Assembly (NCBI GenBank): GCA_900618795.1
Contig: UYJD01000018.1
Coordinates: forward strand, 414,931 to 441,252
Origin: Cyanodermella asteris
Lineage: Eukaryota > Ascomycota > Lecanoromycetes > Ostropales > Stictidaceae
Reading direction: 5' to 3'
DNA: 26,322 nucleotides
The translations under genes were made by a program, and so were the position numbers. The notes under the pieces are model-generated. The model did not search any database, was not told the origin of the DNA, and worked only from the letters and a program-made list of their open reading frames with translations. This document shows, in pieces, positions 13,431-19,299 of this stretch (within the stretch, counting starts at the first letter, position 1; every line of letters starts with the position of its first letter).

Positions 13431-14466
13431 ATGGCTGGAGGCGATGATGATACCGCTCGCAAGATCCAAAGACTCCAGGACTATAATCCTGGTCACGAAC
13501 CTTCGCAGCACCCACCGCCACCACATCCACAACACCTTCCACCGGTCCAACGAACACATGCCGGTTTCCAGCATGCAATGAGTCCACCCGGAGGAGAGCA
13601 CCCGTCGCCGCACCAGAGTCAGGCCCCTCACGCGCCTGTGCATCACCACCTGCCGCCCATGGTCGACCCGGCTCTGGGAGGCGGTGGACATCAGCTGGCC
13701 CCAATTCAGACACCACCTGGCCCACCACCTCATATGCAATTCCCGCAAACGCCGGAAACTGCACAAGAGACTGCCGACAGGCAGAAAGGTCGGCAACTCA
13801 GCAACACGAAACGTGCTGCTCAGAATCGGGCCGCCCAGGTAAGCACAGCCTGTTGTCGTGTTTCACCGTCTTTTGTATATTTGGAGACTGGAAATGAATG
13901 ATCAGACTGAACGCTGACATGTCAAATAGCGTGCCTTCCGCCAGAGAAAAGAGATCCACATCAAGCAGCTCGAGAATAAGGTTGGCGAGCTTGAACCGCT
14001 AAAGCGCCAGGTACACTCTCTTCAGCAGGACAACTACGCCCTTCGTGGATACCTGATCACGATGCTCGAGATGTGCATCAACAAAGGCTATGAGATTCCG
14101 CCAGGGGTTCCGTCAATGCAAAACTTGCAGTCCGGACCACCACCGCCTCCACCATTGGATTCACCTACCCAGGATCAGCACCAAGACGGTGATCCTGCCA
14201 GTGCACAGCTCCACGCGCAGCAAGCGCAATATCAAGACGATGATGAAGATGCCGAGATGGGTGGCGCCGGCCAGCCGGATTCTAGAGAGAACGACGAAGG
14301 AGCCCCGACCGCCCCGATGCAGAACATCGCTCAGCAAGCCATGAATCATGGTGAAGAGCCTGGACGGCCGGGTACAAACCAGAGCCAGAATCACCAGAGC
14401 CATTATGGTCCACTGCCGGGCCCCCCGCAGGATTCTAAGATCGACCCGGCCGTTACTGGAGCTTAG
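13431..14466 (+). CDS. kapC: KapC-like AP-1 family bZIP transcription factor
   Basis: Exons 13431-13838 and 13930-14466 give 314 residues. The 91-nt intron (GTAAGC...TAG) falls exactly between NRAAQ and RAFRQRK, inside the DNA-binding basic region, a position shared by many fungal AP-1-type bZIP genes. The spliced basic region reads TKRAAQNRAAQRAFRQRKE (about 126-144), nearly the same as Aspergillus KapC; it is followed by a short leucine zipper (about 148-185). The first 120 residues are rich in Pro, His and Gln, and the tail after 195 is Pro/Gln-rich with an acidic patch (DDDEDAEMGG), typical activation-type low complexity. The C-terminal IDPAVTGA resembles a short IDPAISG segment in KapC. 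The protein should act in the nucleus on AP-1/CRE-like sites. No Yap1-type cysteine-rich domain is visible, so direct oxidant sensing is not expected. The bZIP call is firm; the orthology is from memory of the motif. Confidence 0.88.
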
Positions 14467-14990: not shown

Positions 14991-16952
14991 TCATGCACCA
15001 CCAGTGAAGGTATTGCTATCCACCTCTGCACTCTGGCCAAATGTCTGCTCGGTCAAGACGGGATTTTGACCGTTCTCACTGCCATCCTCTATGCTGTGCT
15101 GTTCGTTACCATTTTGATTCTGAGAATCTGCGACAGGCCCAGGCATGGTAATCTCGGCCACCGGAACGTCAGAAGCAAATCGACCAGTCATCACCACATC
15201 CTCGCCCATTGGACACCATCTCACGTCGGAGAACTTAGCAACCGGCTTCGGTTTGCCAGTGGGATCAAAGGCTCTATTCGGGCACACGACAACTCCACCC
15301 ATACCCATGTACTGTGGTGAGATGGTCAAAATCACGCTGCTGACCAGATTCCGATTGGGCTCGTTGAAAAGGTCGTTGATGACGCTGCCACCGCCTTCGA
15401 TCATGATACTGCGGATCCCTTCGCCGGCCAAAGCACGGAAAATGCTGTCCCACCTCAGACGGGGCCGCATCGGAAACCTGGGATCCACGTCCGGGAGGCC
15501 GAGGTACTTTCCGCCAAAGAACTTCAGCATCTCTGTCCGTGCTGGGTCGAGATGGAAGCCGGGCGCAACAATGATCCATGGAGCACGGCCTCGCCCTTCG
15601 GCAGCAGCACGCAAAACTTTCGTCTCTTTCGCATCCATCTGCCAGCGACCCAGAGGGTCAAGGATGATTGGTCGAGGGTGCAAAGCCCATCCGAGTCCAC
15701 CATACCCACCCGCTCCTGCCAGCCGGCAATTCAACGTTGGATTGTCGACAGCTGCAGTACCGACACCGATCATGATCGCGTCATGACGAGAGCGGAGATA
15801 GTGTGTCATTGCTTTTGTGGCTGGACCCGAGATATGAGTTTGCACACCAGGGCCCAGGGCAATAAATGAATCCAGGGACGTAGCATAAGATAGTGTGACG
15901 TGCGGCAGACCGCCGGCTGGTGGCTGAAAATCGAAGCGCGGTAGGAAAGGTTCCAAGAAGGGATGCATTGCAGGATTGAAGTGTATTGTATCTGCAGGCA
16001 AGGGCTGCGCGGCAGCAGGAGCCGCAGTCTGGGGGACGACAGGATGGCTGGGAGTGTTCTTGGGTGCTAGTGTTGGCCCTATAGGATCGTTCGGGCCAAA
16101 CCCAGGATGTTGTGCGAGGTCGCCCTTTTGTGAAGCCCGCCACGCTTGCGAGGCATTTCGTACATCAGATCTGGTCATATACTTTCCGCCAATGACGGCG
16201 AGCTTCCCTGCCTCTCCGACCAGGACGTTGAACACGGACGCCGGCATATAGCCTTTCATCACTTCTGATCTTGCGATATCCATGACCACGCTGTTGCGTT
16301 TCATCTTGTCCATGTCTTCGAGATAATGGCTGTGCTCGTGTTCGCCTACTCGTGAAAGTGTCACGGCATGTACACCGCCTTCATAGTGTACGGCGCGAAG
16401 TCTCACCTTGCAAGTACCGCCCTCTCTGGTCTTCTTCTTCCTCAAGGGCTGCCCATCCGGTCCAGCTGGCGGTTTGCGAGGTTGGTATGTCGGTCTTTGC
16501 AGACGACAGGCATAGTAGTCTGTGCGAATGACACCTCGTTGCGAGCCCGCCGCTGGCCCAGATGGCCTCGACTTGTGCTGGCGAACCCAGACGTTGTCCA
16601 CGAACGGAAAGTAGTATTCGAACTCGTCCGACTTCAGCTCGATCGGTTCCTTGACATCGTAGAGCTTCTGGCGCATAAATGCGACCTGCATGGTAGCTCC
16701 ACGGAGCTCGTTGATGTTCCATTTCGGCTGAGGAATAGACCTGTTGAGAAGATATGTGCTGGATCGAGCTCCAGTTGAGTATCGCGAGCGACCAGGATGA
16801 GAGTCATCGGCATCATTCGTATCATCCTGCTCGTCGTCGTCGTCGTTCTGTGGCATTTCAGGAGGAGTGGCCATCTCAGCCATGATATCGTCGTTGTCGC
16901 TGGTCGGAGGACTCTCCTCCTCGCCGTGAGCGTCCTCCATCGTCTCGTCCAT
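14991..16952 (-). CDS. RIB7: Fusion ORF: Cys2-His2 (WRKY-GCM1/FAR1-like) region + RIB7 pyrimidinone reductase
   Basis: A single uninterrupted ORF of 653 residues, roughly twice the usual Rib7 length. Residues ~330-595 are a full 2,5-diamino-6-ribosylamino-4(3H)-pyrimidinone 5'-phosphate reductase, which makes the ribitylamino intermediate of riboflavin synthesis with NADPH. Visible motifs are HVTLSYATSLDSFIALGPG (351-369), SGPATKAMTHYLRSRHDAI (375-393), GVGTAAVDNPTLNCRL (396-411) and the nucleotide-site EGGGSVINDLF (519-529). Residues 1-60 are very acidic. Residues 108-245 hold Cys149, Cys181, His205 and His207 in a C-x31-C-x23-H-x-H layout with RTDYYACRLQR, GGTCKVRLRA and SRVGEHEHSHY around the ligands. 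This is like the WRKY-GCM1/FAR1/FLYWCH zinc-binding DNA-contact fold. A Pro/Ala-rich linker (280-325) joins the halves. Met329 (codon 15966-15968) sits where a stand-alone Rib7 would begin and has a purine at -3, so a short Rib7 could also be made. The last ~55 residues are Gln/Asn/Glu-rich and outside the family. Confidence 0.85.
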   Translation of the reverse strand: MDETMEDAHGEEESPPTSDNDDIMAEMATPPEMPQNDDDDEQDDTNDADDSHPGRSRYSTGARSSTYLLNRSIPQPKWNINELRGATMQVAFMRQKLYDVKEPIELKSDEFEYYFPFVDNVWVRQHKSRPSGPAAGSQRGVIRTDYYACRLQRPTYQPRKPPAGPDGQPLRKKKTREGGTCKVRLRAVHYEGGVHAVTLSRVGEHEHSHYLEDMDKMKRNSVVMDIARSEVMKGYMPASVFNVLVGEAGKLAVIGGKYMTRSDVRNASQAWRASQKGDLAQHPGFGPNDPIGPTLAPKNTPSHPVVPQTAAPAAAQPLPADTIHFNPAMHPFLEPFLPRFDFQPPAGGLPHVTLSYATSLDSFIALGPGVQTHISGPATKAMTHYLRSRHDAIMIGVGTAAVDNPTLNCRLAGAGGYGGLGWALHPRPIILDPLGRWQMDAKETKVLRAAAEGRGRAPWIIVAPGFHLDPARTEMLKFFGGKYLGLPDVDPRFPMRPRLRWDSIFRALAGEGIRSIMIEGGGSVINDLFNEPNRNLVSSVILTISPQYMGMGGVVVCPNRAFDPTGKPKPVAKFSDVRWCPMGEDVVMTGRFASDVPVAEITMPGPVADSQNQNGNEQHSIEDGSENGQNPVLTEQTFGQSAEVDSNTFTGGA

Positions 16953-17613: not shown

Positions 17614-19299
17614 TCATACTTTCTCCTCTGTCCGCTGCCTTGCATTGGCCGAACCACCTTGAATGGCTGTGGTCGAGGCCTCATCCGGGCCTGCAACACC
17701 TTTGAAGCCGCCCTCATCTTTGTCCTCGCCTTTCTGTGGCCACAAAATCTGTCTCTTCCACAATGCCCTTCCCATCATGAAGACTACAAAGATCCACATC
17801 GAGATAAGCAAGCAGGTCATCACGCATCCGATGACCTGCAATGGATAGACGCTGAAGACCTTGGCGACTGCAAATGTCGCATTGACCAATGCTGTCTGCG
17901 GAAAAATGTAACTGAACCAGGTCATTGCAAATGGCATCCTTGCGCCCTTGAAGAAGAAATTGTAATGTGCACCGACACTGATGAAGAAGAACCACAATGC
18001 CAGACCCCAGAGCCAGAGAGCTGCCCAGCTAGCCACGACCATTATGATCATGGCCGCCAATTTCCCGTTGCCCATGAAATTGGTGGCTGCGTATATGCGG
18101 CCGGCATTTTGCGACATGCTAATGAGCGCAGACGCCGTGAAAGCAGACGGACCAACGCTTACAAACATGCCAGGACGCAAAGACTCTCGAGGCAGCTTTT
18201 GTGTCATGAGACGATATATGTAGGCTGAATATATCATCAGACTGACCATCATACCGATACCTTGAGCTGTGAAGCCACCAATAAGGATCCGCGCGCTTCG
18301 ATCAGGATCCAGGTCAGAAGTCAAAACCCCTGCGTGGGTTCCTATAATCAGCAGAGGGTAAGCTGGAAAGATCCAGATTGGCGTCATAGTTGCAATGGTG
18401 AAGGTTTGCGTGCTCCACATCAGCAGGTATATACCGAGACTTGCGATGATGGCAAGGCCAACGTCAACCCAAAACAGGATCATAACCACGGTATTGACCC
18501 AGTCCCCTACTCGCCCGTAAGCATATTGAGATATGTTCATGAGGATAGTGCCGAATGAGACAACAGCTGCGGGGATGAAGAGGGACTCGGTTGGATGGAG
18601 GAGCGAATTTTGAAAGGTTTTCGGGTGAAAGTAGAAGCGCATCGATATGCATGCGACGTTGATCAAGAAAAGGGTAACATTGAGGATGAAGAATAGACAT
18701 CCTAGCGCATACAAGCCCTGAAACTGGAAAGGGACGTGGAAGAGTACGCTTGCTAAGCCCCCGGTTGCCATGGTAATGGTGAAGTAGGTCCAGGTGAAGT
18801 GCTTCAGCCTCTGTCGCCAACCCAAGCCCGGCATGTCCTCGAGTTCGTGTGCTTTGGTCCGTAACGTGTGCATGACCGAGCCTCTCGACGTTCGCGGTGG
18901 CGATTTCGTGGACTCGGACCGTTCGTCGGCTTTTTCGGCTGGTGTTGCTGGGTCGCCGTCGAAGCACGCAACATCTTTCAGTCGGCTGCCTCCAGGAGTA
19001 ACGACTCCCAGTCGAGAATAGAGCCTCTTGGCTTGCTCAAAATCTTCGCCTGTGGGTGTTCTGTAGCCATCCTGACCTGGCTGAGCCACATGAAATGGAT
19101 GGAGGATGCCGTTTGATAGCTGAAGCCCACGAGGTGGTGGCTGCCGTGAATTCGGCATCAGAGCTTCAACGTTCGATGAAATGCTCGTGGCTCTGGGACG
19201 AGGAAGACGAGCTAAAGGGGCGTCGTGTGAATCTTGAGTTGTACTACAGACTGGTTCTGACCTGGGCTCTTCGCTGACACGGTCTGGGTGCGGTGGCAT
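17614..19299 (-). CDS. C4-dicarboxylate / malic acid transporter, TDT (SLAC1/TehA/Mae1) family
   Basis: Single exon, 561 residues, ATG at 19299. Residues 165-512 carry about ten hydrophobic segments (near 168-190, 196-218, 237-258, 267-295, 303-325, 336-360, 376-396, 413-442, 457-480, 485-512). The first has the family pattern FTWTYFTITMATGGLASVL as in Schizosaccharomyces Mae1, and a later one has FFFISVGAHYNFF. Members of this family move malate or other C4 diacids, or sulfite (Ssu1), across the plasma membrane; the Mae1-type first segment favours dicarboxylates, but the substrate cannot be fixed by sequence. Unusual is a cytosolic N-terminus of about 160 residues, rich in Ser, Pro and Arg, much longer than in Mae1, plus a charged C-tail. 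These are likely regulatory. It diverges from the GH105 gene across 1.1 kb. Confidence 0.9.
   Translation of the reverse strand: MPPHPDRVSEEPRSEPVCSTTQDSHDAPLARLPRPRATSISSNVEALMPNSRQPPPRGLQLSNGILHPFHVAQPGQDGYRTPTGEDFEQAKRLYSRLGVVTPGGSRLKDVACFDGDPATPAEKADERSESTKSPPRTSRGSVMHTLRTKAHELEDMPGLGWRQRLKHFTWTYFTITMATGGLASVLFHVPFQFQGLYALGCLFFILNVTLFLINVACISMRFYFHPKTFQNSLLHPTESLFIPAAVVSFGTILMNISQYAYGRVGDWVNTVVMILFWVDVGLAIIASLGIYLLMWSTQTFTIATMTPIWIFPAYPLLIIGTHAGVLTSDLDPDRSARILIGGFTAQGIGMMVSLMIYSAYIYRLMTQKLPRESLRPGMFVSVGPSAFTASALISMSQNAGRIYAATNFMGNGKLAAMIIMVVASWAALWLWGLALWFFFISVGAHYNFFFKGARMPFAMTWFSYIFPQTALVNATFAVAKVFSVYPLQVIGCVMTCLLISMWIFVVFMMGRALWKRQILWPQKGEDKDEGGFKGVAGPDEASTTAIQGGSANARQRTEEKV

Follow-up and report, generated by a model that had tools for sequence, protein, structure and literature searches.

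A probable fusion of the riboflavin-pathway reductase Rib7 with a putative zinc-binding module in the fungus Cyanodermella asteris

Apart from the possible case described here, we know of a riboflavin enzyme with a DNA-binding-type domain only from the archaeal RbkR. This riboflavin kinase with an N-terminal HTH is listed in both roles, as a regulator of genes and as an enzyme, and an enzyme-only relative of RbkR is described as being without the N-terminal HTH (PMC8305020). Known Rib7 chains are stand-alone (243-251 residues among the solved chains that we matched); the Saccharomyces cerevisiae protein ScRIB7 is reported to be a homodimer, in which G76, G78, T79, D83, E180, G181 and G182 belong to the NADPH motif or are positions where mutation abolishes activity (PMC3631187). 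In yeast Rib2, an RNA-modifying pseudouridine synthase domain stands beside the deaminase, and the same account describes moulds as being without this fusion (PMC8256712). The Rib2 case indicates that riboflavin enzymes do pick up nucleic-acid-related partners. How RIB genes are controlled in most filamentous fungi is, to our knowledge, less worked out. In flavinogenic yeasts they are described as being under separate regulators such as Sef1, which is reported to drive them at low iron in Candida famata (PMC12542839).

We analysed a window of 26,322 nucleotides from C. asteris, whose genome (28.5 Mb, 25 contigs) was also searched. The window holds a reverse-strand open reading frame (Table 1) that begins with ATG, ends with TGA and has no internal stop, and its coordinates and its length of 653 codons are exactly those of the single stop-free frame claimed in the first-pass annotation. 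Rib7 and an N-terminal module thus lie in one continuous frame, as first observed. The chance of an open run of 653 codons in sequence of intergenic composition is about 3e-13. The start context of Met1 shows a purine (-3) and a G (+4), and the six codons upstream of it are also open and hold no ATG. The acidic head and Pro/Ala-rich linker that had been claimed are borne out by their composition. In tandem upstream lies a gene for a SLAC1/malate-type transporter (17614-19299 (-), Pfam E 2.9e-86), with 661 bp between its stop and Met1. A convergent neighbour (13431-14466 (+)), 524 bp from the Rib7 stop, presumably encodes, to judge from its motifs, a bZIP-type protein like kapC or Yap; by eye, an intron at about 13839-13929 splits its basic region. 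These two neighbours and the fungal type of the Rib7 would suit a filamentous ascomycete.

Table 1. Features of the fused reading frame, in positions of the window
Feature	Position	Strand	Basis or remark
Fused-protein ORF, 653 codons + stop	14991..16952	(-)	ORF reading; genome place G000:C4
Acidic head, residues 1-62	16767..16952	(-)	composition, 35% Asp+Glu
N-terminal module, residues 94-276	16125..16673	(-)	blocks in common with C18 paralogue: YFPxVDNV, CRL, basic run, C, HxH, KxNS
Cys149, putative zinc ligand 1	16506..16508	(-)	paralogue alignment
Cys181, putative zinc ligand 2	16410..16412	(-)	paralogue alignment
His205-Glu-His207-Ser-His209, putative zinc ligands 3 + 4	16326..16340	(-)	paralogue matches 207, 209
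Pro/Ala-rich linker, residues 277-328	15969..16124	(-)	40% Pro+Ala; no stop and no consensus intron; composition with period 3; codon usage unlike that of coding DNA
Rib7 reductase, residues 329-595 (RibD_C 350-587)	15168..15968	(-)	Pfam, NCBIfam, solved chains
G396-x-G398-T399...D403 = ScRIB7 G76-x-G78-T79...D83 (NADPH site, catalysis)	15744..15767	(-)	alignment
E519-G520-G521 = ScRIB7 E180-G181-G182	15390..15398	(-)	alignment
C-terminal tail, residues 596-653	14994..15167	(-)	no Lys/Arg, 16% Asp+Glu

On its sequence, the C-terminal half is identified as Rib7, predicted to be the reductase that works with NADPH in the riboflavin pathway of fungi. The Pfam RibD_C model matches it with E 4.1e-28 (99 bits against a cut-off of 24.1, over positions 1-196 of the 197 of the profile), the NCBIfam RibD/Rib7 models give sub-threshold matches, and solved Rib7 chains align from residue 330 or 331 (9l1h, E 1.9e-36; yeast 4ha7, E 1e-32). 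These alignments place Met329 where a plain Rib7 would begin, in agreement with the earlier claim. Set against S. cerevisiae RIB7 (4HA7; PMC3631187), the C. asteris protein has the whole reductase domain, the NADPH glycine motif, the equivalents of D83 and E180 and the same start position, and all seven of the key residues named above are kept (numbers mapped by counting along the 4HA7 alignment). It differs at the position of Thr35, a residue of substrate recognition, where Ser355 is a conservative change, and in the pocket for the adenosine 2'-phosphate, where by hand mapping three of nine residues are identical (the equivalents of Trp161, Val185 and Leu189) and six differ. The complete Rib7 with its usual motifs that had been claimed is therefore present, with Thr35 replaced by Ser. 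The name “riboflavin reductase” has to be given up: from the solved-chain match the enzyme is 2,5-diamino-6-ribosylamino-4(3H)-pyrimidinone 5'-phosphate reductase. Whereas the known Rib7 chains stand alone, here 328 residues precede the enzyme and a 58-residue tail follows it, which appears to extend beyond the lengths of the matched solved chains.

Among the best candidates scored across the genome, this ORF alone passes the RibD_C cut-off. The other match, at C11:1665855, is sub-threshold (E 0.04) and was rejected as a second Rib7, since we take its frame, from the motifs, to be a dihydrofolate reductase. Since the domain is complete, the active-site residues are kept and no other Rib7 was recognised, the ORF most probably supplies the Rib7 of C. 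asteris. For the rest of the pathway, the genome gave two matches to GTP cyclohydrolase II in two places, two to lumazine synthase in one place, two to riboflavin synthase in one place, and ten to cytidine-deaminase-type domains, a count in which Rib2 is not told apart.

The N-terminal module also exists apart from Rib7, as a comparison within the genome supports. Cys149 and Cys181 are the sole cysteines before the Rib7 half, a basic run lies at residues 170-176, and two registers are possible for the putative ligands, C181-x23-H205-x-H207 or C181-x25-H207-x-H209. A paralogue at locus L006 (1126-2366 (-), contig C18), in a gene not joined to Rib7, keeps all of C149, C181, H207 and H209 in the alignment. 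Because it aligns with H207 and H209, the C-x31-C-x25-H-x-H register is likelier, so that the first-pass C-x31-C-x23-H-x-H pattern holds in its C149-x31-C181 part and probably not in its x23 spacing. Pairwise BLASTP of module and paralogue gives E 2e-7 with 25 of 81 positions identical (31%; 35% in the full alignment), and in three tests with 2000 shuffles each (full, local windows, basic run masked) no shuffle reached their score. When the whole genome was searched with the module, the paralogue came at E 0.009, and the return search gave E 0.11. In L006 the stretch from the second Cys to the HxH is lengthened by two inserts, of 44 and 11 residues, and by eye a short intron seems to interrupt the gene after LTEQ; its same-strand neighbour presumably encodes a glutathione transferase. 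With hits allowed up to E 10, Pfam searches of the whole protein and of its pieces placed the module in no family, save for a sub-threshold FliG_M match (E 0.04-0.09), which we took as chance; the PDB gave no match to the module by sequence or by a three-sequence profile, and a whole-chain structure prediction from the one sequence (pLDDT 34.5) was not usable.

The module had been assigned to the WRKY-GCM1/FAR1 type, and support for this claim is weak. What speaks for it is the C...C...HxH order with kept putative ligands, which is also the order in Aft1, whose ligands are given as Cys143, Cys215, His239 and His241 (PMC4161868). Against it, the module draws no match from the Pfam AFT and FAR1 models even with E values of up to 10 allowed; a control frame passes the AFT cut-off. 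This control, locus L002 (1225-2919 (+), contig C11), is a 564-codon AFT/FAR1-type frame and the genome's sole match over the Pfam AFT cut-off; the Pfam FAR1 model matches it below cut-off. Its tail is rich in Gln and Ser and, by eye, its C-terminal end is coiled-coil-like. Aligned with L002, the module scores 48, while the top score among 27 decoy pieces is 44. The L002 score was reached in 15 (full shuffles), 31 (local shuffles) and 47 (basic run masked) of 2000 cases each; hhalign gives a probability of 13.6% and, for this single comparison, E 0.0021. The alignment is co-linear through the basic run, the second Cys, the HxH and a closing D-x-x-N-A, with the first Cys outside it. For L006 against L002, 0 and 1 of 2000 shuffles reached the score, a number that rose to 50 when the basic run was masked; in this alignment the two HxH blocks are not paired. 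An hhalign comparison of A2 with L002 (E 3e-64) was discarded, as A2 contains L002. The module thus resembles yeast Aft1 and L002 in its C...C...HxH order, in a basic run before the second Cys and in a later stretch ending in D-x-x-N-A, but differs from AFT/FAR1 fingers in that the Pfam models for AFT and FAR1 do not detect it and in being fused to an enzyme. These likenesses are suggestive of a distant kinship of the module to AFT/FAR1 fingers, short of membership. We consider that the N-terminal half is most likely a putative zinc-binding, nucleic-acid-contact domain, a distant AFT/FAR1 relative, an assignment that we infer from these rather weak similarities.

With neither a stop nor a consensus intron found between the halves, a message starting at Met1 must read into Rib7, and by default we expect a fused product. 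An intron splitting the halves had been named as grounds against a fusion; we found no consensus intron (donor, branch and acceptor) across the linker, either in a strict scan for introns of up to 160 bases, whose five in-ORF candidates all lie inside the intact Rib7 half (a sixth lies outside the ORF), or in a permissive listing of 16352-15941, which gave 16 GT sites, 12 [CT]AG sites and one branch-like site (16169). Within this range an intron between the halves was rejected. The locus could alternatively be two ordinary adjoining genes, their boundary masked either through unusual splicing or because a stop or a frame difference was lost to an error in assembly or base calling. Such a reading gains from the codon usage of the linker, which is not coding-like: residues 277-330 score -0.07 bits per codon, compared with 0.06 to 0.26 in the other segments, and the synonymous-only score of the linker is -0.10 ± 0.07, with residues 147-276 and 329-395 also near zero. 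The linker is open as well in the second forward frame and in one reverse frame, the latter with a codon score (0.16) higher than that of the Rib7 frame; and frames of 52 codons are open in 256 of 1746 overlapping cases (14.7%) in control stretches, so that the open linker by itself is weaker evidence than the whole frame. Besides the missing intron, the base composition of the linker by codon position stands against two genes. Its information of 0.0935 is reached by 0.5% of 2000 shuffles of its own sequence and is above all 50 half-overlapping control windows (maximum 0.076), from stretches picked for their absence of long ORFs and taken, rather than proven, to be intergenic. Period-3 p-values of 0.01 or less do occur in 3 of the 50 control windows, the test misses some true coding stretches (residues 331-395, p 0.52), and, since other frames of the linker are also open, the signal does not name the reading frame. 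Moreover, two sets of gene ends would have to fit into 156 bp, which, compared with the 661 bp to the stop of the upstream gene, leaves little room for a terminator and a promoter. We therefore regard two separate genes as very unlikely, and a translated fusion as strongly indicated.

A fusion could still share its locus with a plain enzyme, if a promoter inside the N-terminal coding part drove a plain Rib7 that begins at Met329, alongside a long transcript for the fusion. Met329, which has a purine at -3, is placed where Rib7 normally starts, and the weak codon usage in the linker would fit such a promoter. The leaky start that had been suggested is itself unlikely: 25 ATGs (including Met1; 13 in frame) precede Met329, leaky scanning past them was rejected, and plain enzyme could thus come only from an internal promoter. 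A bacterial sigma-70 promoter and terminator scan was also run and has no bearing on fungal DNA. We judge a two-product locus to be unlikely. A real fusion with no regulatory role, in which Rib7 works and the module is a captured or degenerate passenger or serves stability or protein contact, is doubtful, and a more serious possibility than either of these. The module has diverged too far to be recognised by any Pfam finger model, and the pseudouridine synthase domain of yeast Rib2 is described as unrelated to, and dispensable for, the riboflavin step (PMC8256712). Weighing on the other side, two paralogues that have diverged to 31% identity over 81 columns still share all four putative zinc ligands, which suggests selection on the finger, and the N-terminal half has no cysteines besides the two putative ligands. 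Most likely, then, the ORF is a genuine fusion with a working Rib7, as far as its putative activity can be judged from conserved residues; a gene-regulatory role of the fused protein is only plausible.

Of these readings we lean, tentatively and with rather less than even confidence, towards a single gene for a two-module protein of Rib7 and a divergent C-C-HxH module, whose dimer would bring the fingers to DNA and may regulate genes. The Rib7 part would form its usual homodimer, which would place two fingers together on one particle, and the N-terminal fingers would bind zinc and DNA. Part of the enzyme pool would then be found in the nucleus, on DNA, where Rib7 could regulate genes; a possible signal would be the occupancy of the Rib7 site by NADPH or by a pathway intermediate, which the protein might sense. 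The interpretation offered in the first-pass annotation is, taken as a whole, partly supported.

We can also imagine a bolder version, which we think quite improbable: a eukaryotic trigger enzyme of vitamin B2, with the Rib7 homodimer holding two AFT/FAR1-like fingers on promoters and so coupling the expression of RIB genes, and perhaps of iron-uptake genes, directly to the levels of NADPH and of pathway intermediates, as a fungal counterpart in principle of RbkR. Aft1 is iron-responsive in S. cerevisiae, and to tie AFT-like fingers, iron and Rib7 together in C. asteris would be speculation. A general link to iron is disfavoured, because iron in most fungi is reported to be controlled by another, conserved system and the Aft1 of P. 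pastoris is described as being without iron-sensing residues (PMC4161868).

No description of a Rib7 and finger pairing was found among the listed titles and abstract openings of open-licence PMC papers, and no relative with the same fusion in viral and prokaryotic collections, where the patterns matched 1, 1, 0, 0 and 14 viral and 0 and 44 genome stretches; as collections of viruses and prokaryotes, these say nothing about fungi. The architecture, and this alone, is what the ORF has in common with archaeal RbkR, namely a riboflavin-pathway enzyme and a DNA-binding-type domain in one chain. The two differ in the enzyme, in the DNA-binding fold and in the domain of life, and both roles are reported for RbkR, whereas only the enzyme domain is recognised here. 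With yeast Rib2 our ORF shares the joining of a fungal riboflavin enzyme to a nucleic-acid-related domain, but in Rib2 the partner is an RNA-modifying enzyme. If the sole Rib7 of C. asteris truly carries a DNA-contact domain, one protein would unite a pathway enzyme with gene control, and eukaryotes would then offer an example of a vitamin enzyme that carries a DNA-binding-type domain.
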